Shown here: positions 14,203 to 31,102 of the stretch, piece after piece
Position numbering within the stretch: position 1 is the stretch's first letter
Layout of the letters: the number at the start of each line of letters is the position of its first letter
DNA from: Caldilineales bacterium
GTDB taxonomy: Bacteria > Chloroflexota > Anaerolineae > J102
DNA: 33,756 nt
Direction: 5' to 3'
Assembly: GCA_013360575.1 (NCBI GenBank)
Contig: JABWBG010000009.1
Location: 1-33,756, forward strand
Position numbers and translations under genes: made by a program
Notes under the pieces: generated by a model
Seen by the model: the letters and a program-made list of their open reading frames with translations, nothing else
What the model was told of the DNA's origin: nothing
The model's database searches: none

Positions 14203-14240
14203 GGCAAACTCCTTGAAAAGTCGTGGCCAAAATCAAGCCA

Positions 14241-15629: not shown

Positions 15630-15681
15630 TTACAATCGCCTCGTGTGCGTATCGTTTGCGGCTGTATCCATTCGGTGATGG

Positions 15682-16719
15682 TCAGGAGGTGAGATAGTGC
15701 TCCAGGGAGCGAACTTTGCACACCAGCTTGGGCAGCTCATCGATGGTCACATAGCCGGGCCGGGCGTTGATCACATCGGGGATGCGGTTGACGATCTGCG
15801 AACTGGTGCCCAGAAGCGTGGGAGGCCTGTCATTGCGCAGGTGAATGGTGGGCGTGCCCCTGATCAGCCACTCGTTGATGTCATACTCCCCCGGCTCATA
15901 GACTTTGGCCGTCTGCGTCGCCTGGAACAGGATGCCCTCGGCGGTTTCGATCACGATCGTATTGTCCAGCCCCGTCACATCCCCGGCCGGGATGATCCGG
16001 TTGAATGCTTTGCAGGGCAGATCGTGATCGAGAATGATCGGCCTGACGCTCTCGGTGATGCTTTTCGTCGTCAGCCCCAGGCCCGCGATCTGGTTTTCCA
16101 GATCCATGCGCAGACAGACCACCTCGTCCCCCAGCGGCAGCTTTTCCTTTCGCTCGATCATGGCGTAGATATCATCGGCTTTCCTGCCCACTGCATAAAA
16201 TTCCGCCACCATCGGGCCTAATTCATCCATGTTGATCATGGCGCGGCCCTCGACCGACTCGATCCGGTGGGATGCGCCGGTCAGGGCGGTGATCAGGTTG
16301 ACCCAGAACACGTCCTGCATGCCCGAACCGGTCACAGTGACCCCGTTTTCCTTGGCGATTTGATCCAGTTTGGCGGCGATGGCGGGGCTGGATGTCCAGG
16401 CATAGGAGGCTTCCTCGGAAGTGGTGATCACGTTGAGGCCCGCTTCCAGGCACCGTTTGACGTGGGGATAGATCTTCTCCATGGCGGTGGCAACGGCGAT
16501 GAGCGCGATGTCGGCTGAGGTCTTGGCAAGCACCTCATCGGCGTTGTCGCTGATTTGAACGTTCAGTTTGCGACCGCTGCCGATGACATCACCCAGATCC
16601 TGGCCCACGTTTCTCAGGTCGATGGCGCCGGTGATAATGACGCCTTTGTCAACCATGAAACGGGCGATGTCTCGACCGATATTGCCAACTCCGTAGGATA
16701 TTGCTTTGATTTTTCGCAT
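15682..16719 (-). CDS. DapB-fold NAD(P)H dehydrogenase, 2,4-diaminopentanoate dehydrogenase-like
   Basis: A 345-residue protein with an N-terminal Rossmann motif (SYGVGNIGRDIARFMVDKG, GxGxxG at residues 10-15) and GAIDLRNVGQDLG, as in dihydrodipicolinate reductase N-domains. The rest (ITTSEEASYAW, VTGSGMQDVFWVN, EFYAVGRKADDI) resembles the 2,4-diaminopentanoate dehydrogenase family rather than DapB itself, which is shorter. Characterised members oxidatively deaminate an amine next to a side chain. It sits 79 bp downstream of the aldolase, in the middle of the GntR operon. An amine dehydrogenase role would fit a nitrogen-compound pathway. That role is inferred. Confidence 0.75.
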   Translation of the reverse strand: MRKIKAISYGVGNIGRDIARFMVDKGVIITGAIDLRNVGQDLGDVIGSGRKLNVQISDNADEVLAKTSADIALIAVATAMEKIYPHVKRCLEAGLNVITTSEEASYAWTSSPAIAAKLDQIAKENGVTVTGSGMQDVFWVNLITALTGASHRIESVEGRAMINMDELGPMVAEFYAVGRKADDIYAMIERKEKLPLGDEVVCLRMDLENQIAGLGLTTKSITESVRPIILDHDLPCKAFNRIIPAGDVTGLDNTIVIETAEGILFQATQTAKVYEPGEYDINEWLIRGTPTIHLRNDRPPTLLGTSSQIVNRIPDVINARPGYVTIDELPKLVCKVRSLEHYLTS

Positions 16720-16798
16720 GTTCAGACCTCGAAAGAATGGTTGGCGGCTCGACTGAGCTCGCCGAAGCCGGCACTGGCGGCGATGATGTCATCGGCCA

Positions 16799-17569
16799 TC
16801 AGGCGGCGGCGTGTGTTGATGAGGCGGGGAAGAGGACGCGGTGCAGCCCGGCCACCACCTCTTCGGGATGGGGCGCCTGCCACACCCGGCGGCCAAAGGC
16901 CACGCCCGCGGCCCCGGCAGCCACTGCATCGCCGGCCACCTCCAGGGTGTTATCATCGTTGCCGCTGCTTGGCCCGCCGGCCACGATCACCGGCAGGGCG
17001 GTGGCGGCGACCACCTGGCGAAAGGCGACGATATCGCCGCAGTAGTTGGTCTTGATGATGTCCGCGCCCACCTCCATCCCGATGCGCGCGGCGTGGGCGA
17101 TCTGTTCCGGCTGATAGAACTGTTCCGGCGGGGGCATCATCTCGGCCACCACAGGCAGGCCCAGGCTGTGGCACTGCTCGATCAACTGGCCGAACCATTG
17201 CAGCAGGAAAGGCTCGCCCCCGCGGCCAAAAAAGATGGAAACGGCTACCGCGTCGACATCCATGCGCAGCGCCGTGGAGGCCGTCACGACCGGGATCTCC
17301 TGGCGCGCCTCGGCGCTGAGGCCGGCGCTGACGCTGACGCGCAGCACGATGCCGACCTGCGGCGGGATCAAATCTGCCACCTGGCGCAGGAATCCGGGTG
17401 TGACCAGCAGGGCAGTGGCCCCGCCGGCCAGCACGGCGGATGTGATCTGCCGGGGGCGGTCGATGCCGGTCACCGGCCCCAGCCAAGGCCCATGATCGAG
17501 GGGAACGAGGAGGCAGCGGCGGTGGGGGCCAACGAGGAGTCGTTGCATGCGTCTTTGTTTTCCGATCAT
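16799..17569 (-). CDS. Class I aldolase, DhnA/LsrF family
   Basis: The 256-residue TIM-barrel protein has LLVPLDHGPWLGPVTG (about residues 20-35), the entry motif of DhnA-type class I aldolases. GADIIKTNYCGD holds the likely Schiff-base Lys, and LPVIVAGGPSS and GVAFGRRVWQ form the phosphate-binding end. Relatives include class I fructose-bisphosphate aldolase, LsrF, and ADH synthase. The ATG at 17569 overlaps the kinase stop (ATGA), so it is translationally coupled to the FGGY kinase, and the two enzymes probably act in sequence: phosphorylation, then C-C cleavage or thiolysis. A longer frame upstream to 17707 lies inside the kinase gene and is not used. The substrate is unknown. Confidence 0.85.
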   Translation of the reverse strand: MIGKQRRMQRLLVGPHRRCLLVPLDHGPWLGPVTGIDRPRQITSAVLAGGATALLVTPGFLRQVADLIPPQVGIVLRVSVSAGLSAEARQEIPVVTASTALRMDVDAVAVSIFFGRGGEPFLLQWFGQLIEQCHSLGLPVVAEMMPPPEQFYQPEQIAHAARIGMEVGADIIKTNYCGDIVAFRQVVAATALPVIVAGGPSSGNDDNTLEVAGDAVAAGAAGVAFGRRVWQAPHPEEVVAGLHRVLFPASSTHAAA

Positions 17570-19071
17570 TTCTGCTGCTCCGGGAAGGGTGAAGGGGGCG
17601 GGACGTGGTCGGGCGCTGCTTCTTGCGCGGCAAAGGCGCTGAAGCGGCGATAAGCGGCGTAGGCGGCGGCGTAGGCGGGGGCCAGCGGGGGCCGGCGTCT
17701 GACCCAACGCGGGGGCCCAAAGGTGCGTTCCAGGGCGACGGCCATCTCCTCTTGGCCCAGGGCCTGCTGGCAGAGGGCGTAGAGGGCGCGGGTGACCGTT
17801 TCTTCGGCGGTGTAGATGGCGGCGTCGTGGCCGCAGGCATCGGCGATGATCTGGGCCAGGCCGGGCGTGTTGGCGCCGCCGCCGGCCAGGGCCAACTCGG
17901 TCACGGGCAGGCCCATCTCGGCGTAGATGTCCAAGAGGTGGCGCAGGCTGAAGGCCACGCCCTCCATGACCGCCCGCGCCAGGTGTCGCGGTTCGTGGCT
18001 CAGCCGCAGCCCGTAAAACCCGCCGCGGATCTCATCCGACCAGTAGGGGCTGCGTTCGCCGGCCAGATAGGGCAGGAAGATCAGCCCCTCCGCGCCCGGT
18101 TCCACCGCCAGGGCCTTTTCTGCCGCCTGCGTGAAGCTGACCTCCGGCGATTGCTGGCCGAAGAATTGTTGGTGCATCCAACTGAGGGCGGCGCCGGTGG
18201 TGGAGGAAACGCCGCCGGCCAGGCGATAGGGGGGGAGGAAGGGGTAGATGTACAGCCGGTCGGCCCGATCCTGCGCGCGCTGACCGGGGGCAAGGGCCAT
18301 GAACACCATGGAGGAGCTGCCCAGCGAGCAGACGACGCGGCCTGGCCGGGGCGGCGCGCCGGTGATGAGGGCGGCGACATCGCCCACGCCGGTGAGGATG
18401 CCGGCGGCGGGATTCAGGCCCAGCTCGGCGGCGAGGGCGGGGCGGGGCGAGGCGATGATCGCATCCGCGGGCAGGATGGGGGGCAGCACGCTGGCGTCCA
18501 GGCCGACAAAGGCCAGGCGATCCAGCGCCCAGGTCTGCGTAGGCCAATCGAGCAGGGCGGCGCCGCCGCATTCGGTCAGGTCGGTGGCCAGCAGGCCCGA
18601 GAGGCGGAAACGGAGATAATCCTTGGGCCAGAGGATGGCCGCGGTGCGCTCCAGGACATCGGGACGGTGGCGGCGCAGCCACAGCAGCTTGGGCAGGGTG
18701 TAGGTGCTGTTGAGCTGGTAGGGCGGCAACTGGTATCGCTGCTGCAATAGCTCGGTCTCGACGTGGGCGCGGCGATCCAGCCAGAGGATCGTCGGCGACA
18801 GCGCGGTGTGCCCCGCGTCCAGCAGCACGGCAGAGTGCATCTGGCCGGTGAAGGCGATGGCTGTGAGCTGATCCAGGCGCAGGCCCTGCGCGCGCAGAGC
18901 CTGCGTGGCCGCGCAGAACGCGGCCCACCAGGCTTCGGGATCGCCCTCGGCCCAGCCGGGCTGGGGGGTGGCATAGGCGTAGCGCTGCGTGGCCACGGCC
19001 AACGTCTGGCCGGCCGCGGTGTAGACCACAGCTTTGAGGGCGGAGGTGCCCACATCCACCGCCAGCAGCAT
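17566..19071 (-). CDS. FGGY family carbohydrate kinase (xylulokinase-like)
   Basis: The 501-residue protein starts LLAVDVGTSALKAVVY, the phosphate-1 motif of FGGY kinases. FTGQMHSAVLLDAG and ILWLDRRAHVE are XylB-like substrate loops, GVGDVAALITG carries the catalytic Asp231, and LAGGGANTPGLAQIIADA is the adenosine motif. It phosphorylates a sugar or polyol using ATP. The start at 19071 is preferred over a GTG at 19095 because AGGAG lies 8 bp before it and the family match begins there. It follows the regulator gene directly and overlaps the aldolase gene. The last 50 residues are Pro/Ala rich and poorly conserved. Whether the substrate is xylulose is doubtful, given the neighbours. Confidence 0.87.
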   Translation of the reverse strand: MLLAVDVGTSALKAVVYTAAGQTLAVATQRYAYATPQPGWAEGDPEAWWAAFCAATQALRAQGLRLDQLTAIAFTGQMHSAVLLDAGHTALSPTILWLDRRAHVETELLQQRYQLPPYQLNSTYTLPKLLWLRRHRPDVLERTAAILWPKDYLRFRLSGLLATDLTECGGAALLDWPTQTWALDRLAFVGLDASVLPPILPADAIIASPRPALAAELGLNPAAGILTGVGDVAALITGAPPRPGRVVCSLGSSSMVFMALAPGQRAQDRADRLYIYPFLPPYRLAGGVSSTTGAALSWMHQQFFGQQSPEVSFTQAAEKALAVEPGAEGLIFLPYLAGERSPYWSDEIRGGFYGLRLSHEPRHLARAVMEGVAFSLRHLLDIYAEMGLPVTELALAGGGANTPGLAQIIADACGHDAAIYTAEETVTRALYALCQQALGQEEMAVALERTFGPPRWVRRRPPLAPAYAAAYAAYRRFSAFAAQEAAPDHVPPPSPFPEQQK

Positions 19072-19091
19072 GGGCGCGTCTCCTGTCACGG

Positions 19092-19862
19092 TCACGCCCC
19101 CACCGCCAGCGAGGCGGAGCGGACGACGTATTTGTAGCGGTCGCCGCGGCTGACCATGCGGGTGTATTCGACCGGCGCGCCATCGTCGGAATAGATGGTG
19201 CTTTCCACCAGCAAGAGAGGGGAGCCGGGGGCCGTCTGCAGCAGTTCATTTTCGCGATCGCTGCCGGCAATGGCCTGGATGGTCAACTCGGAACGGGCGA
19301 AGGTGACGCCCTGCCGGCGCAGCAGCCGCCACAGGGAGACTTCGGCTTCGATCTCGGCGGCGGTGAGCGTCACCTGCGGGGGCAGGCGCAGATGGGAGAT
19401 GGAGAGGATCGTGGGTTCCTCTTCGATCAGGCGGAGGCGTTCGACGATCCAGACCCAGGCGCCAACGGACAGTTGCAGGGCCGCGGCCACATCTCCCAGG
19501 GCCGGCTCCTGGCGGAGGGAGAGCAACCGCGAGCCGGCGCGCAGGCCGGCCGCTGCCAATTCTTCGGAGAAACTGCGCAACTGGGTCAATTCGCGCTGCA
19601 CTTTGGGCCGGGCCACAAACGTGCCCTTGCCCTGCTGCGATACCAGGTAGCCCTCGCGCACCAGTTCGTTGATGGCCCGCCGCACCGTGATCCGGCTGAC
19701 GTTGTAGGCCTCGCAGATCTCACGTTCGGTGGGGATGAGATCGCCTTCTCGCCAATGGCCTTGCTCCAGCGGTTCCAGCAGGGCCTGGCGTAGTTGGTGG
19801 TATAGCGGCACGGGCGCGTCCCGGTCGATGGCGGTTGAATCGAGAATGGTCAAGTTTCCCAT
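19092..19862 (-). CDS. GntR family transcriptional regulator, HutC subfamily
   Basis: A 256-residue regulator. The winged helix-turn-helix (about residues 15-84) has VPLYHQLRQALLEPLEQG, IPTEREICEAYNVSRITVRRA and LVSQQGKGTFVA. The UTRA effector domain follows (about 100-250), with SIYSDDGAPVEYTRMVSRGD-like C-terminal sequence seen as TIYSDDGAPVEYTRMV. HutC regulators bind short palindromes and are released by a pathway metabolite. An operator copy lies in its own promoter (19902-19921), consistent with autoregulation, and three more copies precede the neighbouring operons. The start at 19862 (ATG) is chosen since AGGAG precedes it; a GTG at 19877 is possible. It leads the kinase-aldolase-dehydrogenase operon. 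Its effector is unknown. Confidence 0.9.
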   Translation of the reverse strand: MGNLTILDSTAIDRDAPVPLYHQLRQALLEPLEQGHWREGDLIPTEREICEAYNVSRITVRRAINELVREGYLVSQQGKGTFVARPKVQRELTQLRSFSEELAAAGLRAGSRLLSLRQEPALGDVAAALQLSVGAWVWIVERLRLIEEEPTILSISHLRLPPQVTLTAAEIEAEVSLWRLLRRQGVTFARSELTIQAIAGSDRENELLQTAPGSPLLLVESTIYSDDGAPVEYTRMVSRGDRYKYVVRSASLAVGA

Positions 19863-19901
19863 GTTGCTCCTGTTCACGTGGTTTCGAGTGGATCAATTTA
19901 T

Positions 19902-19963: not shown

Positions 19964-20001
19964 CGAAAAAAACACAGCAGCGCCGGACCTTTACCGGCTG
20001 C
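19964..20001 (-). terminator. Rho-independent terminator of the sugar importer operon
   Basis: On the minus strand, a GC-rich stem (GCAGCCGG pairing with CCGGCGCTGC, with a small bulge) is followed by seven T (A-run at 19966-19972). The stop codon of the importer ATPase (19991-19993) lies in the loop. It separates this operon from the gntR promoter. Confidence 0.75.
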
Positions 20002-21088
20002 CATCGGCGAGGAGGGCTTCGCTGGCAGCGTCGAAGATGCGCAGGCTGGCGGGGGCAAAGTTCATCCACACCGCCGCACCGATCTCCATGCGCACCATCG
20101 CCCCGACAATGGCCTTGACGCTGTTATCGCCGCATTGCAGGGTGAGCAACGTCTCTTTGCCCAGCACTTCGGAGATGTAGACCGCGGCCGGCAGCGCGCC
20201 CGGCAGGGGCGCCAACTTGATCTGGATGTCTTCCGGACGGATGCCCAGCATCACCGGCAGGTGGTCGGGCGCGGCGGCGAGCTGGGCGCGTATCGCCGGC
20301 GACAACGGATAGGTGAAGCAATCGGAGGCGATCTGCCAGGTGTGTTTGTCCAGCCGGCCGGGCAGGAAATTCATGCCGGGACTGCCCAGAAAACCGGCCA
20401 CAAAGATGCTGTTGGGATGCAGATAGACCTCTTCGGGGTAACCGGCCTGCAGGACGCGGCCCGCGTTCATCACCACCAGCTGATCGGCCAGGGTCATCGC
20501 CTCGGCCTGATCGTGGGTGACGTAGACGGTGGTGACGCCCAGATCGCACTGCAGGCGCTTGAGTTCGGCCCGCATGCTGACGCGCAGCTTGGCATCCAGG
20601 TTGGAGAGGGGTTCATCCATGAGGAAGAGATCGGGCTGGCGAACGATGGCGCGCCCGATTGCCACCCGCTGCATCTGCCCGCCGGAAAGCTGCCGCGGCA
20701 GGCGATCGAGCAAGTCGCTGAGGCCGAGGATGGCCGCGGTCTCGGCCACACGCGCCTTGATCTCTTTGCGCGACATCCCGCGCGCGGCCAGAGGGAAGGC
20801 GATGTTCTTGAACACGGTCATGTGCGGGTAGAGGGCGTAGCTCTGGAAGACCATGGCGATGTTGCGCTCCCAGGCGGGCACATACGCCACTTCTTTTTCG
20901 CCGATGATGATTTCGCCGGCGGTCGGCTCCTCCAGCCCGGCCAACATGCGCAGCAGCGTGGTCTTGCCGCAGCCCGAAGGGCCGACGAGCACGGTCAATT
21001 TGCGGTCGGGGAAGTCGAGGGTGATGTCGTCGACGGCCACCGCATTGTGAAAGCGTTTGGCCAGATGGCGGACGGAGACTTTGCTCAT
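19991..21088 (-). CDS. CUT1-type sugar importer ATPase (MalK/UgpC/MsmX family)
   Basis: The 365-residue protein has Walker [10 protein letters not shown] (36-44), the Q-loop in [25 protein letters not shown] (from 134), Walker [13 protein letters not shown] (from 154) and the switch His in [17 protein letters not shown]-terminal OB-type (TOBE) regulatory domain follows with LGIRPEDI. It energises the two permeases encoded just upstream. The frame is open upstream to 21865 through the permease gene, but family similarity begins at the ATG at 21088. The 23-bp gap has no strong ribosome binding site. Such ATPases can serve several importers. Confidence 0.93.
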
Positions 21089-21111
21089 GATCTGATCTGT
21101 TGAGTTGGCAG

Positions 21112-21963
21112 TTAATACTTCACGGATCCGGCGGTGAGGCCGCGGATCACCCAGCGCTGGAAGATGAGGACGATGGTGATCACCGGCAGGATCGCCAGCA
21201 CCACCCCGGCGGAGATCCAGGTCCATTGCTGGCGGAAGGCGAAAGAGAAGTTTTGAATGGCCACCGGGATGGTCTGCACATCTTTGATGCCCAGGGTGAC
21301 GACCGAGGCCAGCATGAACTCGCCGTAGGATCCGATGAAGGCGAACATGCCCGCGGCAAACATGCCGGGCAACGAGAGGGGGAGGATGACGCGCAGAAAG
21401 ATCTGGAACGGGCGATAGCCATCCACTTTGGCCGCGTCCTCCAGTTCGAAGGGCAGCTCGGCGAAATAGCTGGCCAGCAGCCAGGTGGCCAACGGCACGC
21501 TGTAGAACACATTGGGGATGACCATGGCGGGCAGGGATTTGAGCAGGCCGATCTCTTTCAGCAGCACGAAGGTGGGGGCGATGGTGACCACGGGGGGAAT
21601 CATGGCCCCCAGTTGCAGCAGCACCAGGGATTGCACCTTGAACTGGAAGCGCAGCCGCGCCACAGCGTAGGCGGCGGTGGCCGAAACCACCAGACAGAGG
21701 ATGGCGGTGGAGAGGGAGACCAGGAAGCTGTTGCCCAGCGGCGTGAGGAAGCCCAGCTCGTCGATGACGTTGCGGTACGCGTTCAGCGTCGGCTCCTCCG
21801 GCCAGAGCTGGATGGGGATCAGATATTCGCTGCCCATCGGCTTCAGCGAGGTGCTGAAGACCCAAAAGAGGGGGATCAGGCAGAAGAGGGTGATGACGAT
21901 CGTGGTCAGCAGGGCCAGCGTACGATCGATGCGCTTGGCGTTGCGTTGCAGCCAGGATTTCAT
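21112..21963 (-). CDS. CUT1-type sugar importer permease (MalG/UgpE type)
   Basis: A 283-residue membrane protein with six predicted hydrophobic segments, starting near residues 15-35 (TLALLTTIVITLFCLIPLFW). The cytoplasmic EAA loop is seen as ELEDAAKVDGYRPFQIFLRV with ILPLSLPG, where the ATPase docks. Its ATG overlaps the stop of the other permease by 4 bp (ATGA), so their translation is coupled. It works with the second permease, the binding lipoprotein and the ATPase to import a carbohydrate or related solute. Nothing in the sequence gives the substrate. Confidence 0.92.
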   Translation of the reverse strand: MKSWLQRNAKRIDRTLALLTTIVITLFCLIPLFWVFSTSLKPMGSEYLIPIQLWPEEPTLNAYRNVIDELGFLTPLGNSFLVSLSTAILCLVVSATAAYAVARLRFQFKVQSLVLLQLGAMIPPVVTIAPTFVLLKEIGLLKSLPAMVIPNVFYSVPLATWLLASYFAELPFELEDAAKVDGYRPFQIFLRVILPLSLPGMFAAGMFAFIGSYGEFMLASVVTLGIKDVQTIPVAIQNFSFAFRQQWTWISAGVVLAILPVITIVLIFQRWVIRGLTAGSVKY

Positions 21964-23123
21964 GCGCCTTTGAACCTCAGGTTTTTGCGGATGCGGCTGA
22001 CATAGAAGACGCCGAGCAGCAGCACGATCAGGAAAACGACCACGCCGTAGGCCGAGCCAAGGCCAAATTGGGCGCGGCTGAAGTAGAATTTGTAGGCCAG
22101 GGAGCTGAGCGTCTCTGTGCTGACGCCAGGCCCCCCGCGGGTGAGGCCGTAGATCAGGTCGAAGGTGCGGATGGCGTCCATGCCCCGGAAGAGCAGGGCC
22201 ACGGCGATGGTTGGCGTCAGCAGGGGCAAGGTGATGCGGCGGAAGCGATAGAACCCGCGGGCGCCATCCACTTTGGCCGCGTCATAGATGTCTTGGGGGA
22301 TGATGGCCAGCCCGCCGATCATGAGGATGGCGATCATCGAGGACATCTTCCAGATGTCGGCGACGATCACCGCGTGCCGCGCCAGAATCGGATCGACCAG
22401 AAAGATAGGCACTTTTTCGAGGACGCCCCACTGCACCAGCAGGCTGTCCAGACCCACATCGGCGTTGAAAAACCATTTCCAAATGGCGGCGGAAATGATC
22501 GGGGGGATGGCCCAGGGGATGATGATGATCGAACGAAGCACGCCGGCCAGGCGTCCGCCCACCCAGAAGGTAGTCATGGCCATGCCCAGCCCGATCCAGA
22601 ACTCGAAGAAGACCGCCACGCCCGTGAAATAGAGGGTGTAGCCCAGGGCGGCGCGGAAGTTGGGGCTGTTCCACACGCTGATATAGTTGCGCAGCCCGAT
22701 AAAGGTTTCACTGCTCCATGCGGTGGTGTATTCCAGGGTGTGCAGGCTGTAGATGAGTGTCTGCGCGATCTGATAGTAATAGAAAAGGAAGATGCCGACC
22801 ACTGCCGGCAGGATGAAGAGCAGCGCCAGCTCTGGCTCGCGCAGGTTGAGACGGCGCACCCGCCCCAGCCCGATGCCGAGCATGAGGCTGCCCGCCAGCG
22901 CCAGCGCGGCCGGGGCCGCGGCCAGCCCTGGACGCACGACGAAGACCAGGGCCGCGAGCACATACAAACCGCCCACTGCTGCCGTCAGCCCGCGCCAGCG
23001 CGTGCGCATCTGCCGGGCGGCGGCCCACGCCCGCGCCAGCATGACCAGCCCTAGGAAGATCAGGCCTACGATCAGAATATAAACCAGCAGAATACGCGCA
23101 ACGGACAGGAAAGTTGTTTCCAA
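21960..23123 (-). CDS. CUT1-type sugar importer permease (MalF/UgpA type)
   Basis: The 387-residue protein is longer than the usual 290-310 residues of UgpA-type permeases. The excess is at the N-terminus, where about 90 residues form two or three extra hydrophobic segments (VYILIVGLIFLGLVML, then AAVGGLYVLAALVFVV, then ALALAGSLMLGIGLG), as in MalF-like proteins with added helices. The conserved part begins near ELALLFILPAVVGIF. The EAA loop is IYDAAKVDGARGFYRFRRITLPLL. Its stop overlaps the next permease start. It follows the binding protein gene after 96 bp that contain a strong hairpin. Confidence 0.9.
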   Translation of the reverse strand: METTFLSVARILLVYILIVGLIFLGLVMLARAWAAARQMRTRWRGLTAAVGGLYVLAALVFVVRPGLAAAPAALALAGSLMLGIGLGRVRRLNLREPELALLFILPAVVGIFLFYYYQIAQTLIYSLHTLEYTTAWSSETFIGLRNYISVWNSPNFRAALGYTLYFTGVAVFFEFWIGLGMAMTTFWVGGRLAGVLRSIIIIPWAIPPIISAAIWKWFFNADVGLDSLLVQWGVLEKVPIFLVDPILARHAVIVADIWKMSSMIAILMIGGLAIIPQDIYDAAKVDGARGFYRFRRITLPLLTPTIAVALLFRGMDAIRTFDLIYGLTRGGPGVSTETLSSLAYKFYFSRAQFGLGSAYGVVVFLIVLLLGVFYVSRIRKNLRFKGA

Positions 23124-23219: not shown

Positions 23220-24641
23220 TTAGGGGCCGACCGCGTCGATCTGCGCGCACGCCGCGTCGAGGGCGTCTTGCGGCGCCTTCAGTCCGGCCAGCGCCGCGTG
23301 CAACTCCTCGGTGAGGATGGACGAGATCTCGGCAAAGCGCGGCGAGGGAATGGGGGGGATAGCTGTGCTGGCGACCTTTTCGATCAGCGGCATGTTGGGG
23401 TTGTTGGCGAGCACTTCGGGGTCGCTATACACATCCATGTGCGCTTGCACCGGCCCCTGCGAGAGGTTGAAGGCCTTCTGCACGGGGAAGTCGAACATCA
23501 CCTCCAACACTTTGGCCACGGCCTCCGGGTTTTCGGTGTACTTGTTAATCGAGAAGCCCCAGCCTTCGAAGAAGCCGGCGCCTTGGCCCGGCTCCACGGC
23601 TGGCATGGGCACGAAGCCCCATTTGTCGACGACCTTGGACTGGGCCGGGTCGTTCAGCCAGAACATCATGTCCTGCCGCCCGGTGTGGAAGACGGACAGG
23701 CCACTGGTGAACCGCACCTGCGACTCCTCTTCCTTCCAGGTCAGCGCCTCCAGCGGGGTGACGCCCTCATCCAGCAGGCTCTTCATGAAGTTCAGGGCCG
23801 CCAATCCGTTGGCGTCGTTCATGGCGCACTGGCCGGCGGCGTCGAAGTAGGAACCGCCGTGGCCGCTCAGGTACTCGACCCAACGGTTGACCAGCACCTG
23901 TTCCTTGAGCGCGGGCCAGGTCCAGCCGCTGAGTTCAGGGTTTTGGGCCGTGATCTGCTTGGCTGCATCCACCAGTTCGGCGTAGGTCTGCGGCGGGGCG
24001 ATGCCGGCTGCCTCCAGCAGGTCTTTGCGGTAGTACAGGCCGCCGATGCCGCCCCACCAGGGGCCCAGCGCCAGCAGTTGGCCATCGACCGTGAAGGCAT
24101 CGAGGTAGGCCGGGTTCAGTTTGCCCAGCACATCCGGGCTGATCAGGTCGTTCAGCGGCAGCAACCAATCGGCCTTGGCGAATTCGGGCAACCAGTACAA
24201 CCCCATGCCGATCAAGTCGGTGGTGCCATCTTCGGCCTGGAACCAGGCGAGATAGTTATCGCGCCAGGGGCCGGCTTCGTAGGGCATGATGTTCAGCCGC
24301 ACTTCGATGTTGGGATACTTCTTGGCCACTTCTTCGCGAATGGCATCGATGGGCGGCGCGGCCGGCCCGAAGGTCTTCTCGAAGTAGCCGTTGTAGGCGA
24401 GGGTGACGATCTCCTGCTTGACAGGAACCTCGACCGTCACGACCTTTTCCACCTCAACGGTCTGTACAACTTCCACCTCGACGGTCTTTACAACTTCCTT
24501 GATGACTTCCACCTGCTTTTCCACGGTGACTTCCACCTGCTTCTCCACCACCTGGGGGGTAGGCGTGGCGCAGGCAGCCGCCAGGGGCAGGATCATCATC
24601 AAGACGACGATGACGAACCAGAAACTGCGTTTCTTTGACAT
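23220..24641 (-). CDS. CUT1-type extracellular sugar-binding lipoprotein with Val-Glu-Lys stalk
   Basis: The 473-residue protein has a lipoprotein signal ending LAAAC (Cys24). Residues 31-77 form a stalk of V/E/K/T repeats (units like VEKQVEV, VVKTVEV, VEKVVTV), typical of Chloroflexota binding proteins and probably a spacer between membrane and binding domain. The binding domain (EIVTLAYNGYF onward) has the family 1 solute-binding motifs LPLNDLI, YRKDLLEAAGI, PQTYAELVDAAKQI and FVPMPAVEPG. It captures a sugar-like solute for the two permeases. AAGGAGGAG lies close before the ATG at 24641. No promoter was recognised in the 135 bp upstream. Confidence 0.92.
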   Translation of the reverse strand: MSKKRSFWFVIVVLMMILPLAAACATPTPQVVEKQVEVTVEKQVEVIKEVVKTVEVEVVQTVEVEKVVTVEVPVKQEIVTLAYNGYFEKTFGPAAPPIDAIREEVAKKYPNIEVRLNIMPYEAGPWRDNYLAWFQAEDGTTDLIGMGLYWLPEFAKADWLLPLNDLISPDVLGKLNPAYLDAFTVDGQLLALGPWWGGIGGLYYRKDLLEAAGIAPPQTYAELVDAAKQITAQNPELSGWTWPALKEQVLVNRWVEYLSGHGGSYFDAAGQCAMNDANGLAALNFMKSLLDEGVTPLEALTWKEEESQVRFTSGLSVFHTGRQDMMFWLNDPAQSKVVDKWGFVPMPAVEPGQGAGFFEGWGFSINKYTENPEAVAKVLEVMFDFPVQKAFNLSQGPVQAHMDVYSDPEVLANNPNMPLIEKVASTAIPPIPSPRFAEISSILTEELHAALAGLKAPQDALDAACAQIDAVGP

Positions 24642-24776: not shown

Positions 24777-25748
24777 CTATGCCCAGAAGTTGTGCGGCCA
24801 GGCATGCTCCTTCAACAGGGCCATGTCGCTGGCAGGCAGCGGGCCTCGTTCCGATGCGGCGGTGTTTTCCAGCACGTGATGCAATTTGCGCATGCCGGTG
24901 ATCACGCTGGTCACAGCAGGATGGCTGAGACAGAAGCGCAAGGCCGCCTGCGCCAGGGTATCGCCCTCCTGACGCAGCAGAAAGCGCAAACGCTCGGCCC
25001 GCTCCGCCACCTCCCGTCGCCGGTCGCCGGAGAAGTAGAAATCTTGAAAACTGCCGGGCGCAAAGGTGGTTTGGGGCGTGATCTTACCGCTCAGCGCGCC
25101 TTCATCGAGGGGGGATTTGACGATGATGCCCACCTGTTCGGCCAGCGCCAGCGGAAACAGCGCCGTCTCCGGCGCCTGCTCCCAGATGTTGTAGGTGACT
25201 TCGCAGGCGTCGATCAGACCGGTGGCGATGCCCGCGGCGCCATAATCCGGCTCCAGGGGATAATTCAACGATAGCCCGAAGGCGGCGACCTTGCCCTGCT
25301 GTTTGAGCTGCGTGAAGGCCTCTTGCCAGTCATCCAGGTGCGCCCATTCATCCAGCCAGACGTGCAGCAGCAGCAGATCCAGGCATTCCACCCCCAGCCG
25401 CTTCAGGCTTTTCTCGGCCGAGGCGATGATCCATGCCTTGGGGAACACCTCGGCCAGCGGCGCGCCTGGCGCTGCCGGCCAGGTAAAATTCATGGGATTG
25501 ACCTTCGTAGACACGTAGATGCGTTCGGGCCAGGCGGCGATGGCCCGCCCCACCAGTTTTTCGCTCAGCCCGTCGCCATAGTTGGGGGCCGTGTCCACGA
25601 AATTGACGCCCTGGTCAAAGGCCGCGTGCAGAGCTGTCAGCGATTCGTCATTGTCCGCGCCGGCCCACCAGGCGCCGCCAATGCCCCACGCCCCAAACCC
25701 GATCTCAGAGAGTGCAATCCCCGTCTTGCCCAATTGTCGGTAATGCAT
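24777..25748 (-). CDS. Aldo/keto reductase
   Basis: A 323-residue AKR barrel protein. VNFVDTAPNYGDGLSEKLVGRAI gives the catalytic Asp and Tyr, YVSTKVNP gives the Lys, and the DLLLLHVW strand carries the active-site His. The C-terminal SVITGMRKLHHVLEN region binds the NADP(H) phosphate. It reduces or oxidises a carbonyl, possibly a sugar, as in the D-threo-aldose dehydrogenase group. It lies 135 bp upstream of the sugar-binding lipoprotein and in the same direction, so it may be co-transcribed with the importer. The repeat-rich spacer 25749-26009 precedes it. The substrate is not known. Confidence 0.87.
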   Translation of the reverse strand: MHYRQLGKTGIALSEIGFGAWGIGGAWWAGADNDESLTALHAAFDQGVNFVDTAPNYGDGLSEKLVGRAIAAWPERIYVSTKVNPMNFTWPAAPGAPLAEVFPKAWIIASAEKSLKRLGVECLDLLLLHVWLDEWAHLDDWQEAFTQLKQQGKVAAFGLSLNYPLEPDYGAAGIATGLIDACEVTYNIWEQAPETALFPLALAEQVGIIVKSPLDEGALSGKITPQTTFAPGSFQDFYFSGDRRREVAERAERLRFLLRQEGDTLAQAALRFCLSHPAVTSVITGMRKLHHVLENTAASERGPLPASDMALLKEHAWPHNFWA

Positions 25749-25764
25749 GGTTGTGTTCCTTTTG

Positions 25765-25785
25765 GTTATTAGTTATTAGTTATTC
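25765..25785. repeat. Three tandem heptamers (GTTATTA type)
   Basis: GTTATTA, GTTATTA and GTTATTC stand head to tail just upstream of the aldo/keto reductase start. They resemble the short tandem heptamer repeats known from cyanobacteria and filamentous bacteria. They flank the inverted-repeat element on its left. Confidence 0.7.
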
Positions 25786-25804
25786 GGTAACAGTTCACCT
25801 GATG

Positions 25805-25924
25805 TGTCATTGCGAGGGCGACCGCAGGTCGCATGGCGAAGCAATCTCCAAGGTGGTTCGTCAATTTTGTGGCTATCAATCAGCGTTGGGGATTGCTTCG
25901 GGGCTATCGCCCCTCGCAATGACA
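25805..25924. mobile_element. MITE-like inverted-repeat element, about 120 bp, no coding capacity
   Basis: The ends TGTCATTGCGAGGG and CCCTCGCAATGACA are perfect 14-bp inverted repeats. A second inverted pair lies inside (CGAAGCAATC at 25837-25846, and GATTGCTTCG at 25891-25900). This matches the TGTCATTGCGAGCGAAGCAATC-type dispersed repeat seen in several bacterial phyla. It has no ORF, so it depends on a transposase elsewhere or is a REP-like element. As RNA it could fold into a long hairpin between mttB and the aldo/keto reductase gene. Confidence 0.75.
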
Positions 25925-25973
25925 AAATAAGGTGAATTATTTGTTATTGTTTTATTGGATAATAGATATTAAT

Positions 25974-26000
25974 CGTCCATCGTCCATCATCCATCGTCCA
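25974..26000. repeat. Four tandem heptamers (CGTCCAT type)
   Basis: CGTCCAT, CGTCCAT, CATCCAT and CGTCCA stand in tandem just after the mttB-like stop codon. Together with the heptamers at 25765-25785 they bracket the inverted-repeat element. Confidence 0.7.
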
Positions 26001-26009
26001 AAAACTGCG

Positions 26010-27449
26010 CTAGATTCGCTTTTCGAAGTAACGCCGCGCCTCTTGCAGGATCCGTTCCAGTTCGGCGTCTTGCGTGGGGGTGGTGAAACGCTGCTCCGGC
26101 GCGGCCAGGATGCTGGCGAAACGGGCGCGGGCGTGGTCGAAGGCCGTCTTTTTGCCCCCCTCCTGCCACTCGGCGTAGGTTTGCGTGTCGGCGGTGGCGC
26201 CGGTGAACTGCTCCTTTCGCCACCACTTGCGCGTGTGCGCCTGGTTCAGATAATGGCCGGGGATGGGGCCGACCGCCTGGATCAGGGCCACGGCCAACGT
26301 CTCTTCGCTCATCTCCTCGCCGGAGATGAAGCGGCCCACCATGCCGGCGATATCGTCATCGAGAATGGCCTGCACCGGATGCGCGGTCAGTTCGTTGGCC
26401 ACGCCCAGGTGCAGCAGCATCGAATTGACGCCGGACAGGGCCGCGGCGATGGCCGCCATCCCCTTTTCGTAGCCGGCCTGGAACTCGATGCCCTTGGCGT
26501 TGACATAACCGGGGCTGCCATTGCTAAGGGGGAGGCCATAGCGCCGCCACAACTGGTTGAACATGGCATTGTTCAGCGAAGACCCGATCTGACCGAAGGC
26601 GGGGGAGCCGCTGCGCATGTTCAGCGGGGCCGAGAAATGGCCGATCAGCATGCGCTGGCCAGGCCGCAGGCACTGCGCCAACACCACCATGGCCAGGTGC
26701 TCCGCCGTGCTGACGATCACCGAGCCGGGCACGGTGGCCGGGCCGGTGCCGCCCATCATCGAGCCATCCACCGTGGTCAGCGCATACCCCGCCTCCACGA
26801 TGCGGCGGGCGGAGGCGACCGCGGCGCTGCTCCAGGTCAGGGGCGGCGAGGAGCCGATGGTGCCGGCGATCTCCTGGCCCAGCGCCTGCGCCATCTGAAA
26901 AGTGAAGAGTTCGGCGTCGTTGGAGCAAGCGGTGATCTGGTGCTTGTCGGAGTACTGCATGTGCAGCGCCACCCCGGCGGGCACGGCCAGGACATCGGGC
27001 AGGTCGTCGAACCCGAAATAGGGGTAGCAGCCCAGGTGATCCAGGTGCGGCAGCGCCTGCAACACGCGGATGCAGTCGATATACTCTTGCCGCGTGGGCC
27101 GCCGCGGTTCCAGCGTGTCGAGATCGATGCTCTGCATCCCGGAGGAGTGGGTGAAATAGAGGCGGTCGCCGCCCAGATGCAGGTCGTTGGCCCGGTTGGG
27201 CGCGGCCAGAGTGAACTGTTTGGGCGCCTCTGCCAGGCAGGCTGCCACCAGTTGGCGAGGAAAACGCACCCGCCCAGAGGCCTCGTCCACCGTGCAGCCC
27301 TGTTGGGCCAGGAAAGCCAGCGCCCACGCATCCTCGAACAGGATGCCCGGCTCGGCCAGTACGCGCAGCGCGCCCTCGTGCAGCGCGTCGATCTGCGCTT
27401 CCGGCAGCATCTGCCACGGGGTGCGGTTGCGGAAGCCCTGACGGGGCAT
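26010..27449 (-). CDS. MttB family corrinoid methyltransferase without pyrrolysine
   Basis: A 479-residue protein of the trimethylamine methyltransferase (MttB, COG5598) superfamily: GILFEDAWALAFLAQQGC, SSGMQSIDLDT, ACSNDAELFTFQMAQALG, TVPGSVIVSTAEHLAM and QAGYEKGMAAIAAALSG are typical segments. In the methanogen enzyme pyrrolysine lies just before a (T)D(S/A)K...QAGYEK stretch. Here GYVNAKGIEFQAGYEK reads straight through with Tyr315-Val316, and no in-frame TAG exists, so this is a non-Pyl member like the glycine betaine methyltransferase group. Such enzymes pass a methyl group from a quaternary or other methylamine to a corrinoid protein. Its partner is probably the corrinoid protein 22 bp upstream. 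The substrate is unknown. Confidence 0.88.
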   Translation of the reverse strand: MPRQGFRNRTPWQMLPEAQIDALHEGALRVLAEPGILFEDAWALAFLAQQGCTVDEASGRVRFPRQLVAACLAEAPKQFTLAAPNRANDLHLGGDRLYFTHSSGMQSIDLDTLEPRRPTRQEYIDCIRVLQALPHLDHLGCYPYFGFDDLPDVLAVPAGVALHMQYSDKHQITACSNDAELFTFQMAQALGQEIAGTIGSSPPLTWSSAAVASARRIVEAGYALTTVDGSMMGGTGPATVPGSVIVSTAEHLAMVVLAQCLRPGQRMLIGHFSAPLNMRSGSPAFGQIGSSLNNAMFNQLWRRYGLPLSNGSPGYVNAKGIEFQAGYEKGMAAIAAALSGVNSMLLHLGVANELTAHPVQAILDDDIAGMVGRFISGEEMSEETLAVALIQAVGPIPGHYLNQAHTRKWWRKEQFTGATADTQTYAEWQEGGKKTAFDHARARFASILAAPEQRFTTPTQDAELERILQEARRYFEKRI

Positions 27450-27471
27450 GGGGCGAGGATCCTTCTCTGAA

Positions 27472-28119
27472 TCAGAGAGCGAGGAGGGTTTTGGTCAGCT
27501 TGACCGCGCCGGGCGCGGTGGCGTCGAAGCCATCGGCGCCGATGGCCGCGGCAAAATCCGCGGTGATGCCGCCGCCGCCCACAATCACCTTCACTTGCTG
27601 GCGCAGGTTGGCGGCGGTCAAGAGGTCGATCACCTTTTTCTGCTCTGGCGCGGTGGTGGTGAGCAGGGCAGAGAGGGCCAGCACCTGGGCGTTGTAGGTG
27701 GTCACGGCAGCGACAAAGGCCTCTGCCCGCACATTGATGCCCAGATCGTGCACGGTGAAGCCGGCGGCGCTGAGCAGGGTGGCCACCATGTTCTTGCCGA
27801 TGTCGTGGATATCGCCGAACACGGTGCCGATGACCACCACGCCCAGCCCTTGGCGGTGCAGGCCCCGCTGCGCCACCTCGGCTTCGAGGATGGCTGTGGC
27901 CGCGGCCATCGCCTCTGCCGCCGCGATCAGGTCGGGCAGGAACAATTCCCCGCAGCCAAACCCCTCCCCCACCTCGCGGATGGCCTCGGTCAAGGCGGCG
28001 AGCGCGGTGATGGGGTCGATCTGCTGCGCCACCGCCTGCTGCGCCCAGTGGGCGGCGGCGGCGGGGTCGTACTCGATGACGGCCAGTTCGAGGCCGTCCA
28101 GGATGTCATCGGCGGTCAT
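27472..28119 (-). CDS. Methylamine-type corrinoid protein (partner of the MttB-like enzyme)
   Basis: This 215-residue protein has an N-terminal helical cap (about 1-85, with GELFLPDLIAAAEAM) and a Rossmann-like B12 domain. FGDIHDIGKN holds the DxHxxG motif (Asp103, His105, Gly108), where His105 is the lower axial cobalt ligand. ALSALLTTTAPEQ and KVIVGGGGITADFAAAIGADG are the other corrinoid-binding loops. It shuttles a methyl group on cobalt. It lies 22 bp upstream of the mttB-like gene and 4 bp downstream of the Ftr-like gene. It is clearly different from the other corrinoid protein in this operon (30419-31102), so each methyltransferase probably has its own carrier. Confidence 0.92.
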   Translation of the reverse strand: MTADDILDGLELAVIEYDPAAAAHWAQQAVAQQIDPITALAALTEAIREVGEGFGCGELFLPDLIAAAEAMAAATAILEAEVAQRGLHRQGLGVVVIGTVFGDIHDIGKNMVATLLSAAGFTVHDLGINVRAEAFVAAVTTYNAQVLALSALLTTTAPEQKKVIDLLTAANLRQQVKVIVGGGGITADFAAAIGADGFDATAPGAVKLTKTLLAL

Positions 28120-28123
28120 GGCC

Positions 28124-29011
28124 TCATTCCTCAGGGATCGGGGGCAGCAGTTGGCGCAGGTAATACTTGTGTTTGCCGAACTCGCCGCCGAAGTTCATGG
28201 CGGTCAGGGCGATGACGCCAGGGGCCTGGGCCGCGGCCTGCAACGCCAGCCCCATGGCCCGGGCCATCAGATCGGCAGAGGCGCCGAACATCAGCAGGTT
28301 CAGCACCGATTCCACGCCTGCCGGCACTTTGCTGTCCTCGATCTGCGTGCGCAGGGAAGGGATGTAATCCAATTCGCGGTACACCTGCTCCAGGCCGTAG
28401 CCCATCGGCGCCACGCCGTCCACCGCCGCGATCGCATCTTTGGCAGCCAGAATGGCGGCGACCGCCGCGGCGGCGTTGGCGGCGAAGCAGACGAAATGGC
28501 CATCGGTGCCGTTGGCGCTGATCCGAAGTTCTTTTTCGTAGAGAAATTCGCCGGTGGTGGTGGGCACCACGCACATCCGTCGGCCCGCGACCAGACGTTC
28601 GCCATCTTTCCCGGCCCAGCGCGTCTGCGACATGGCAAAGTGGGCGTGGATGTCCACGCGCACGCTGTCCAGGCCGGGGATCATGGCATCGAACAGGGCC
28701 ACGGTGGGCACCAGCGAGGCCAGGGCCAGGCGCAGTTCGATCTCTTTCAGCAGCGCCTGCCGGTTTTCGGGGATGTGGGCCAGGGAGAGGAAGACGCCGG
28801 GGCGGTGATCCGGGGTCTCGTGCGGCCCGGCCACGCGTTCGATGCCGGCGTTGAGGGGGGAGCCGATCATGCTGGAACCGGCCGCGCCGGCGAATTGCTG
28901 GGCCGCGCCCATCGCCAACTCGGTGGTCATGGCCGTGATCAGCAGGCGCGAAACTTCCAGGGTCCAGGCTTCGGCGAAGGTGTCGTAGATTTCGACAGGG
29001 TGGGCGGTCAT
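28124..29011 (-). CDS. Formylmethanofuran:tetrahydromethanopterin formyltransferase (Ftr/FhcD)-like protein
   Basis: The 295-residue protein has the length of Ftr (about 297). The N-terminal half is a clear match: EIYDTFAEAW (7-16), VSRLLITA (20-27), NAGIERV (54-60), ETPDHRPGVFL (65-75) and later PTTTGEFLYEKEL. The C-terminus NFGGEFGKHKYYL (273-285) matches the NYGGKLGxYxFxL ending of Ftr. It differs in the segment that in methanogens and methylotrophs reads SGSKxGxKYKFL: here it is GYGLEQVYREL. Ftr moves a formyl group between methanofuran and H4MPT. No Fhc/Fmd/Fwd or H4MPT genes are in the window, so a different carrier or reaction is likely. It lies 8 bp after mtmB and 4 bp before a corrinoid gene. 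The start at 29011 is chosen by homology; the frame is open further upstream. Confidence 0.82.
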   Translation of the reverse strand: MTAHPVEIYDTFAEAWTLEVSRLLITAMTTELAMGAAQQFAGAAGSSMIGSPLNAGIERVAGPHETPDHRPGVFLSLAHIPENRQALLKEIELRLALASLVPTVALFDAMIPGLDSVRVDIHAHFAMSQTRWAGKDGERLVAGRRMCVVPTTTGEFLYEKELRISANGTDGHFVCFAANAAAAVAAILAAKDAIAAVDGVAPMGYGLEQVYRELDYIPSLRTQIEDSKVPAGVESVLNLLMFGASADLMARAMGLALQAAAQAPGVIALTAMNFGGEFGKHKYYLRQLLPPIPEE

Positions 29012-29019
29012 GGCGTTTC

Positions 29020-30408
29020 TCAGTGCAGGGGCATGCCCGCGGCGATGGCGGCATCCTTGACGGTGTCGTATATCCGCTGCCATTCGTCCGAAGGCTGGAG
29101 TGTGGCCAGATCGTAGCATTCCTGGAAGCTCTGGCCTTTGGGCGGGTTGCCCAGTTGCTGCTCGTATTTGGGCAGCAGGCGGTTGGCGATCTCGTTGGCC
29201 TGGGCCAGACTCATGCCCGCGCACCGTTTGAACACCTCGCCGGCGAATTTAACTTCCAGCGGGGTGATGTAGTTGGTGTATTTGCCGCCGGCAGAGCGCG
29301 GCCCTGTGCAGGAGGAGGCGCCGCACACGCTCAGCAGCATCATCCCCACTGCCGACTCGTACAGCAGGCACTCTGTCGCCGGGCCGGCCGTCTGATTGAG
29401 CACGGAATTGGCGCAGAGGTGGGTGTTGCGGCTGAGCGCCTGGAACACCACCCCCAGCGACCACAAGGCCGGACGACCGCAATTGCCCATCGTCTTCAGA
29501 TCGTAGGGGAAACTGGCCCCATTCACGCACTGGTAGACGTTGTAGAGCATGATCGTGCAGGCGATGCAGGAGAGGGCCGCGCCCTCTGGCCCGCCGGCGT
29601 AGCCGCCGATCATCGACCAGGAGCCGCCGTAGGTTTGGCCGCCGCAGTTGTAGGCGTGGGCCAGCTTCATCAGGTTCTCGTAGGAGGTCTTGATCTCCAC
29701 CGGCGAGAGCACCAGAACGATGTCTCGCTGCGGTTTGTAGCCGCCGGGGATGCCAAAACCGCCCAAGACGCCGTAATGCGTGGGCGAGGTGCCGACGGCG
29801 TAAAGGCCGATGCCTTCTCGCCCGGCCCTGGCGATGGCGCCGTAAAAAGCCTCTGCCTGCATCTTGCCTGCCAGCAGTTCGTAGGGCGACCCGGCCCGCA
29901 GCGGCGCGCCCCAGATCGTCTCGAAAGAGGGCCCTTCCAGGCAGTCCACCTCGGGGATGGCGGCGATGCCGGTCACCAGCGGCTCGAATACCTCCTCGGA
30001 CACGGCGATGCTGAGGGGGGAGACCCAGATCGGGGGGGTGGGGTCGGAGATGGCGCGGTGGACGAAGTGGGCGATCTCCCGGCCCTCGCCCAGGGTGAAG
30101 GCCGCGGGGGCCGCGTCCACGCCGGCCAGCAGCTCTGCTTGCGAGTAGCGGATGGCGCGTTGGGTGTCGGTGCAGAGCATGCCCACCTCTGTGGCGACGT
30201 CCACCGCTGCCCGATAGAAGCGATCGGCCAGTTCCAGATCCTGGTTGATGGGGTTGGCCGGGTCGCAGGTTTTTTGCAGCCCATACTCTTTCAGTTTGGC
30301 GGCGATGACGCCGGGGATGACGCGTGTGTCCCAATCGAACTGCTTGATCACCGGGCCGCGGTGCGCTTTGTCCAGCACATCCATGAGTCGATCACGATTG
30401 ATAGTCAT
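29020..30408 (-). CDS. MtmB (monomethylamine methyltransferase) homologue without pyrrolysine
   Basis: The 462-residue protein is the length of MtmB (458). Shared segments run throughout: LGEGREIAHFVHRAISD, SPYELLAGKMQAEAFYGAI, MIGGYAGGPEG, AGPATECLLYESAVGM, and at the end GQSFQECYDLATLQPSDEW. In the methanogen enzyme GMGV-Pyl-GPETS has pyrrolysine at 202; here GIGLYAVGTS has Tyr203, coded TAC at 29800-29802, so no amber codon is needed. The Glu of the GGxE motif near the active site is kept. Loss of Pyl suggests a different substrate or methyl-activation chemistry. Its partner is probably the corrinoid protein just upstream (10-bp gap). AGGAGGAG precedes the ATG at 30408; the longer frame upstream overlaps the corrinoid gene. 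Confidence 0.88.
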   Translation of the reverse strand: MTINRDRLMDVLDKAHRGPVIKQFDWDTRVIPGVIAAKLKEYGLQKTCDPANPINQDLELADRFYRAAVDVATEVGMLCTDTQRAIRYSQAELLAGVDAAPAAFTLGEGREIAHFVHRAISDPTPPIWVSPLSIAVSEEVFEPLVTGIAAIPEVDCLEGPSFETIWGAPLRAGSPYELLAGKMQAEAFYGAIARAGREGIGLYAVGTSPTHYGVLGGFGIPGGYKPQRDIVLVLSPVEIKTSYENLMKLAHAYNCGGQTYGGSWSMIGGYAGGPEGAALSCIACTIMLYNVYQCVNGASFPYDLKTMGNCGRPALWSLGVVFQALSRNTHLCANSVLNQTAGPATECLLYESAVGMMLLSVCGASSCTGPRSAGGKYTNYITPLEVKFAGEVFKRCAGMSLAQANEIANRLLPKYEQQLGNPPKGQSFQECYDLATLQPSDEWQRIYDTVKDAAIAAGMPLH

Positions 30409-30418
30409 CGTACTCCTC

Positions 30419-31102
30419 CTATTCCTGTACGAATGTCGCAGAGACGGGCGGTGTTTCCTGCGATTGCAGCAGGCGGTCGCACAAGCGCACGGCCGAGACG
30501 GCGCTATTGCCCCAGCCATCCGCGCCGATCCGTCTGGCATAATCGGATGTGACCGGGCCGCCGCCGACGATGACGAAGAAACGGTTGCGGGCGCCGGTCT
30601 CGGTCAGCAGATTGAGCACATCCTGTTGGTAGGGCATGGAGGTGGTCATCAGGGCGGAGAGGGCAATGAAGCGGGCTTTTTCGCGCAGCGCCACATCGAT
30701 TACCTCCATCGGCGGCACATTGACGCCGACATCGATCACGTCGTAGCCATGAACCGAGAGCATGGTGGCCACCAGATTTTTGCCGATATCGTGAATATCG
30801 CCGGAGACCGCGCCGATCACCACCTTGGCTTTGGTCTGCGTGGCCTGGCCGCTGTGCAGGTGGCGGGAGAGGATGGCCATGCTCTGTTTCATGGCTTCGC
30901 CGGCCAGCATCAGGCTGGGCAAGAAAATTTCGCCGGCTTCGAACATGTCGCCGATCTCGGCGATCGCCTCCGAGGCTACCTCGATGGCCTCCATGGCATC
31001 GACGCCGGCGTCGATGGCGGCCTGGGCGGCGGCGGCGGCGGCTTCTGGCTCGGTGTCCAGAATGCTGTCGTACAACTGCGTGAGCAGTTCCTGCTTGTCC
31101 AT
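30419..31102 (-). CDS. Methylamine-type corrinoid protein (partner of the MtmB-like enzyme)
   Basis: A 227-residue MtmC/MttC-type protein. The N-terminal cap has AGEIFLPSLMLAGEAM (about 56-71). The B12 domain has SGDIHDIGKN with DxHxxG (Asp102, His104, Gly107), then LSALMTTSMPYQQ and VIVGGGPVTSDYARRIGADGWG. It carries the methyl group between the methyltransferase and an acceptor. AAGGAG lies 6 bp before the ATG. It is the first gene of the operon, following an approximately 200-nt leader from the promoter at 31324-31352, and is followed after 10 bp by the mtmB-like gene. Confidence 0.93.
   Translation of the reverse strand: MDKQELLTQLYDSILDTEPEAAAAAAQAAIDAGVDAMEAIEVASEAIAEIGDMFEAGEIFLPSLMLAGEAMKQSMAILSRHLHSGQATQTKAKVVIGAVSGDIHDIGKNLVATMLSVHGYDVIDVGVNVPPMEVIDVALREKARFIALSALMTTSMPYQQDVLNLLTETGARNRFFVIVGGGPVTSDYARRIGADGWGNSAVSAVRLCDRLLQSQETPPVSATFVQE

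Follow-up and report, generated by a model that had tools for sequence, protein, structure and literature searches.

The window, a stretch of 33,756 nucleotides that forms a complete contig of a Chloroflexota host genome (91% complete), carries an open reading frame on the minus strand (29011..28124) whose 295-residue, Ftr-like product is here termed FtrX; the plus strand at 28124-29011, a region for which the earlier note gave no strand, is not the FtrX gene. The pathway genes of the window (13180-19877) and the FtrX operon (24777-31102) lie on one strand and are joined by a CUT1 importer, relatives of which are found in the same cluster elsewhere. Enzyme roles in this cluster were assigned by family resemblance, with scores often below the curated cut-offs, as follows.

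13180..14202, minus strand: zinc alcohol dehydrogenase (ADH), threonine 3-dehydrogenase-like (52% to the homologue in genome G038; NCBIfam tdh 204 bits, below cut-off)
14241..15629, minus strand: cog0402-type amidohydrolase, MTA/SAH or 8-oxoguanine deaminase-like (60% to the G038 homologue; 4f0r, 3.8e-69)
15682..16719, minus strand: 2,4-diaminopentanoate-dehydrogenase-like protein (NF040740 161 bits; PF19328; gene order)
16799..17569, minus strand: DhnA/LsrF-type (DeoC/LacD family) aldolase (NCBIfam PRK07226 213 bits; MJ0400 structure 1.2e-45)
17566..19095, minus strand: FGGY carbohydrate kinase, xylulokinase-like (TIGR01312 311 bits, below cut-off; 58% to the G038 kinase)
19092..19877, minus strand: GntR/UTRA (HutC-type) regulator (51% to the G038 cluster regulator; NCBIfam matches)
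19991..21103, minus strand: MalK-type ATPase (ABC_tran, OB_MalK, TOBE_2)
21112..21963, minus strand: ABC permease 2 (PF00528)
21960..23123, minus strand: ABC permease 1 (PF00528, MalF/UgpA-like)
23220..24641, minus strand: solute-binding protein of a CUT1-type ABC importer (PF01547; relatives in Chloroflexota clusters)
24777..25748, minus strand: aldo/keto reductase (AKR) (PF00248; relatives near FtrX in 11 of 13 loci, including the window)
26010..27449, minus strand: non-Pyl MttB-superfamily methyltransferase (PF06253 3.6e-79; open frame without pyrrolysine)
27472..28119, minus strand: corrinoid protein B (B12-binding and B12-binding_2; MtgC-like, below cut-off)
28124..29011, minus strand: FtrX, divergent Ftr-like protein of 295 amino acids (Pfam FTR and FTR_C; Ftr fold, TM 0.83 to 1ftr; clade support 100/100; E245N in 13 of 13)
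29020..30408, minus strand: MtmB-superfamily methyltransferase without pyrrolysine (PF05369 6e-74; alignment to 1l2q)
30419..31102, minus strand: corrinoid protein A (B12-binding and B12-binding_2; below MtgC/MtbC cut-offs)

FtrX is separated from the mtmB-like gene by 8 bp and from the corrinoid gene by 4 bp, exactly as given in the earlier note, which had also described the gene as stand-alone; that description does not hold, since its pathway genes are located some 10-15 kb from it on the same strand of the window. The MtmB-like protein has a Tyr at the position aligned with the Pyl of MtmB1 and no in-frame stop, and the same Tyr is found in the MtmB-like proteins of four other clusters. 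Among solved structures, the MttB-family protein comes closest to 2qne and to the glycine betaine methyltransferase 9yce. The 2,4-diaminopentanoate-dehydrogenase-like gene occupies the slot of the GlcD/CCG pair of its relatives, and the cog0402-type amidohydrolase keeps the HxAE motif. A separate plus-strand cluster (5476-13172), comprised of an ABC ATPase, two BPD_transp_2 permeases and a xanthine-dehydrogenase-type molybdoenzyme (FAD and Mo subunits), is suggestive of nucleoside or nucleobase use.

Fold and active site of FtrX

Pfam, phmmer and fold agree that 28124-29011 encodes a divergent, full-length Ftr homologue, as the earlier note had read it. FtrX matches Pfam FTR (PF01913, 1.1e-24) and FTR_C (PF02741, 5.2e-18, in the C-terminal half only) as well as the solved Ftr structures (1.6e-38, phmmer), and the homology is therefore far above chance. 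The Pfam search found FTR domains only, with no URO-D or Pterin_bind domain in FtrX. The AlphaFold2 model (pLDDT 82) revealed the Ftr fold, with TM values of 0.76-0.84 to Ftr structures over the whole length and 0.83-0.84 to archaeal Ftr, and this fold together with the FTR and FTR_C domains places FtrX within the Ftr/FhcD family. The curated NCBIfam FhcD models TIGR03119 and NF002554 were not reached, FtrX scoring about half of the cut-offs (155.9 versus 292.6 and 171.8 versus 297 bits).

The DTFAEA, AGIER and ETPDHRPG motifs are all present in FtrX and the SGSKxGxKY segment is missing, with PMGYGLEQVYRELD in its place and a net deletion; the motifs had been correctly reported as kept and the segment as replaced. 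The residues that replace this loop (209-223) are of low confidence in the model. Across the 13 FtrX proteins described below, the extended segment (SGSKxGxKYxxLxASTN) is deleted or replaced without exception, and Asn is found in all 13 at the position of Glu245 of Methanopyrus kandleri Ftr (Asn238 in FtrX), where 93% of 30 ordinary Ftr have Glu. In the M. kandleri enzyme, Glu245 is the residue key to substrate binding and catalysis, presumably protonated and stabilising the oxyanion. Of the positions conserved in at least 90% of the 30 ordinary Ftr, FtrX retains 39, including D10, T11, E14, R22, D68, R70 and N280, and has lost 30. Invariant residues peculiar to FtrX include W16, Q39, S46, S51, E90, T153, D170, H172, C175, E208 and Q209, and those of them that are polar point to a functional active site. 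Since Asn could still donate a hydrogen bond, transfer or hydrolysis is the first guess for FtrX; an unrelated reaction, or a role without catalysis, would fit the missing catalytic Glu just as well. Separately, in the Ftr of L071 (genome G568) and L076 (G645), whose genes adjoin those of the canonical pathway, Gln takes the place of Glu245; the two group on one long branch, and a change of function in them is possible.

Relatives and conserved gene neighbourhood

Twelve further FtrX members were found, all in Chloroflexota or Bacillota, giving 13 with the window copy.

L008: Anaerolineae MAG A05DMB-I-30 (present twice in the sample, as G419 and G818)
L005: a distant Chloroflexota genome
L120, L122, L123 and L124: Chloroflexota
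L009: Candidatus Formimonas warabiya DCMF, Bacillota
L057 to L061: five more genomes of Bacillota

These proteins are 50-75% identical to the window FtrX, as against about 30-37% for ordinary Ftr/FhcD. In a tree of 43 proteins (13 FtrX and 30 archaeal and bacterial ordinary Ftr, including those of Methanobrevibacter and M. kandleri), FtrX forms one clade with support of 100/100 and a stem of 1.38 substitutions per site, set apart from the Methanobrevibacter, M. kandleri and bacterial proteins and not grouped among ordinary Ftr/FhcD; as the root is the midpoint, the tree speaks to separateness and not to age. The distribution is patchy, since FtrX was found in none of 19 other sampled genomes of the host's family. 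Sampling of two classes of known members yielded no further FtrX, and sampling of the host's own class, a sample that evidently includes A05DMB-I-30, yielded four new loci. No relatives were found on viral contigs, and matches on plasmids were only to ordinary fhcD-like proteins (about 30-38%). DCMF carries FtrX in addition to a canonical Ftr in a complete Fwd-Ftr-Mch operon.

A comparison of the 13 FtrX loci with 27 control Ftr loci revealed that the cog0402-type amidohydrolase and the zinc ADH are found in all 13, the ADH immediately adjoining FtrX in every locus except that of the window. Nine loci have the FGGY kinase and aldolase, the remaining four being short or cut contigs, and where enough DNA is visible an importer, of CUT1 or ECF type, is also present. 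The S component of the ECF transporter in Bacillota gave no match in Pfam, NCBIfam or the solved structures that would point to a ligand. FwdA, FwdC, Mch and RimK/CitG are found in none of the 13 FtrX loci, an absence that is weak in several of them because the MAG contigs are short, compared with at least one of these genes in 23 of 27 Ftr loci. Of the four exceptions, L010 and L015 are perhaps too remote to be caught by the bait proteins, L074 has pieces of FwdB and FwdD, and L069 has Ftr beside an amidohydrolase and a BMP-type transporter.

Corrinoid genes are found in seven FtrX loci, six of Chloroflexota and one of Bacillota with a more distant MtmB; four Bacillota loci (DCMF and three others) are without local corrinoid genes, one of them lying on a contig that stops early. 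The phylogeny proposed in the earlier note to look for a corrinoid-operon clade recovered a separate FtrX clade, of which corrinoid genes are not constant partners and which they accompany mainly in Chloroflexota. A reading of the corrinoid operon as the defining context finds no support, the constant elements being the amidohydrolase and ADH, with kinase, aldolase and AKR. A Pterin_bind protein resembling methyl-THF:corrinoid methyltransferase is encoded in seven FtrX loci, its gene adjoining corrA in several of the Chloroflexota; the window yielded no protein related to the Pterin_bind or MtaA-like methyltransferase of the cluster.

Several further features of these genomes were observed. 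In L009, a glycine-cleavage H-like lipoyl protein (19369-19788) is encoded beside a second GlcD/CCG pair; this arrangement, downstream of FtrX, is shared by DCMF (L009) and G466, with an MtaA-like gene next in DCMF. A connection with the mec cassette of DCMF, which concerns dichloromethane, was weighed and set aside, as the surroundings of FtrX in L009 contain no cassette, just the MtaA-like and Pterin_bind genes. Eight MtmB-family genes are present in G418 (DCMF) and six in G038; because only one of these, in DCMF, has an in-frame TAG, the non-Pyl MtmB proteins constitute a sizeable uncharacterised group. The protein most increased on dichloromethane in DCMF is a non-Pyl MtmB of unassigned role (PMC9768040), and a formyltransferase is not mentioned in the main text of the DCMF proteome paper.

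H4MPT, methanofuran and folate genes

A PF01913 profile search of the whole host genome returned FtrX as the sole match, with no second Ftr. Mch is absent from both the host genome and the Anaerolineae MAG A05DMB-I-30, no Fwd/Fhc genes are found in the window, and the host genome lacks beta-RFAP synthase, the committed step of H4MPT synthesis. The remark in the earlier note that the usual Fwd/Fhc partners are missing nearby is borne out, and the genome search that it had called for shows Mch to be lacking as well. Its expectation of a changed carrier or reaction is likewise supported by the separate clade, the E245N replacement, the loop deletion and the lack of Mch and beta-RFAP synthase. Of nine FtrX genomes tested, eight lack beta-RFAP synthase and all nine encode formate-THF ligase (FTHFS), and dependence of FtrX on H4MPT is consequently not general. 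The single synthase, in DCMF, adjoins the operon with FwdA, FwdB, FwdC, Ftr, Mch and likely synthesis genes. The known spread of H4MPT/methanofuran genes through Firmicutes and Chloroflexi (PMC5020050) explains the ordinary Ftr encountered here and not FtrX.

In three Bacillota, including DCMF, FwdB has an in-frame TGA where others have Cys (UHGPG versus CHGPG), making it a candidate selenocysteine protein.

L062:6173-7459: TGA-split FwdB
L063:5938-7236: TGA-split FwdB
L064:11931-13226: TGA-split FwdB

Mch homologues were also found in L077-L087 (genomes G495, G038, G418, G553, G466, G706 and G573), with up to seven matches per genome, some of them partial, mostly in genomes without beta-RFAP synthase. 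They are 25-40% identical to canonical Mch, except for a 54% copy in L080 (DCMF). Frequent neighbours of theirs are BMP or ECF transporters, cog0402 amidohydrolases and DAO oxidases, and five of the loci have a 2-oxoacid dehydrogenase E1a/E1b/E2 set next to the Mch homologue. In G495, which gave no beta-RFAP synthase match, L069 and L075 each have an ordinary-type Ftr beside amidohydrolase and BMP-type transporter genes, with a DAO oxidase also in L075.

Proposed role of FtrX and comparison with known systems

Context and phylogeny show that the FtrX cluster lies outside H4MPT C1 metabolism. FtrX itself is best read, with a probability of roughly 0.5, as a neofunctionalised Ftr paralogue in a catabolic cluster, most likely performing formyl or acyl transfer or hydrolysis on a pathway intermediate. 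The cluster probably degrades a methylated, sugar-like nitrogen compound; what is shown is that the genes are present, in what order they lie and that they are conserved, and the substrate and chemistry are inferred from the enzyme families. The compound would be imported via the CUT1 or ECF transporter, and its polyol or sugar-like part oxidised by the zinc ADH, phosphorylated by the FGGY kinase and cleaved by the DhnA-type aldolase, probably to dihydroxyacetone phosphate and an aldehyde, with the GlcD/CCG or Ord-like protein and AKR providing oxidation or reduction. The cog0402-type amidohydrolase may deaminate an amidine or amino-heterocycle part and, judging from their families, the non-Pyl MttB and MtmB of Chloroflexota would use the corrinoid proteins to strip off methyl groups bound to nitrogen and deliver them to tetrahydrofolate. 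FtrX would act on a formyl or related acyl group that stems from the nitrogen-containing part, and the acceptor might be THF, an amine of the pathway or water; Asn238 could donate a hydrogen bond to the tetrahedral oxyanion in place of Glu245, and D170, H172, C175, E208 and Q209 may serve the different donor and acceptor. Riboflavin-, pterin-, nucleoside- and methanopterin-like substrates were weighed, and nothing separates them. Ftr and Mch are thought to serve only H4MPT-bound C1 units; a tentative extension is that both were recruited in anaerobes without H4MPT, where an Mch-like protein might open a cyclic amidine and FtrX move or remove the formyl group in the degradation of N-methylated purine-, pterin- or flavin-like compounds.

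It is possible that FtrX keeps the fold but performs other chemistry (as an isomerase, hydratase, lyase or non-formyl acyl transferase) or acts as a binding or scaffold subunit in the same pathway. The Asn in place of the key catalytic residue in all 13 proteins, the 30 lost Ftr positions and the deleted SGSK loop would fit such a role, whereas the 39 Ftr positions kept and the new polar invariants, suggestive of a working active site, argue against it. That FtrX is a true Ftr, acting on tetrahydrofolate or residual H4MPT and channelling C1 units that derive from the demethylated substrate in the direction of formate, is unlikely: although methyl groups probably reach a pterin carrier in the pathway and the same phyla contain canonical Ftr, the host genome has neither Mch nor H4MPT synthesis (beta-RFAP synthase), none of the 13 loci has FwdA, FwdC or Mch, Glu245 is lost, and Bacillota clusters retain FtrX without local corrinoid methyltransferases. 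The earlier note had further placed FtrX where a methyl-accepting second methyltransferase of the corrinoid system might be expected. Its position between the mtmB-like and corrinoid genes, in a window with no relative of the cluster's own Pterin_bind or MtaA-like enzymes, would favour this, but seven FtrX loci already encode a THF:corrinoid-type Pterin_bind methyltransferase, so FtrX is not the missing enzyme, and four Bacillota clusters have FtrX with no local corrinoid protein. To our knowledge, no Ftr homologue accepts a methyl group, and we consider this role highly improbable.

Ftr serves as a marker for methanogenesis and for methylotrophy by way of H4MPT. A match in Chloroflexota or Bacillota may signal a different pathway, and annotation of FtrX as formylmethanofuran formyltransferase is thus probably mistaken. 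As a conserved unit, the cluster points to an as yet uncharacterised route of anaerobic demethylation and degradation, and induction tests are possible in the cultured strain DCMF, which carries one member. No description of an Ftr-like gene in such a cluster was found in the open-access literature.

FtrX resembles Ftr/FhcD (1FTR, 1M5H, 1M5S and 6S6Y chain D) in its whole-length fold, PF01913 and C-terminal PF02741 domains and DTxAEA, ETPDxRPG and NxGG motifs, with about 31-33% identity to the archaeal structures, and differs in the replacement of Glu245 by Asn and of N168 by His, the deletion of the SGSKxGxKY loop and the lack of Fwd/Fhc/Mch partners. As in the Fhc complex (FhcABCD), an Ftr-family protein is encoded with an amidohydrolase; unlike FhcA/FwdA, however, this amidohydrolase is of the cog0402 deaminase type, and there is no FhcB or FhcC. 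Known non-Pyl MttB systems are those of MtgB (glycine betaine) and MthB (phosphocholine, with kinase MthK); the substrates of such MttB proteins are quaternary amines, which a kinase may first make ready (PMC12155760). The FtrX cluster shares with these the MttB, the corrinoid protein, a THF-type methyltransferase (in FtrX relatives) and a kinase, which is of FGGY type as opposed to the serine-kinase-like protein of the MthB system, and goes beyond them in its aldolase, deaminase-type amidohydrolase and FtrX. FtrX constitutes, within an uncharacterised catabolic cluster, a new branch of an established family that has been rebuilt in a consistent manner.
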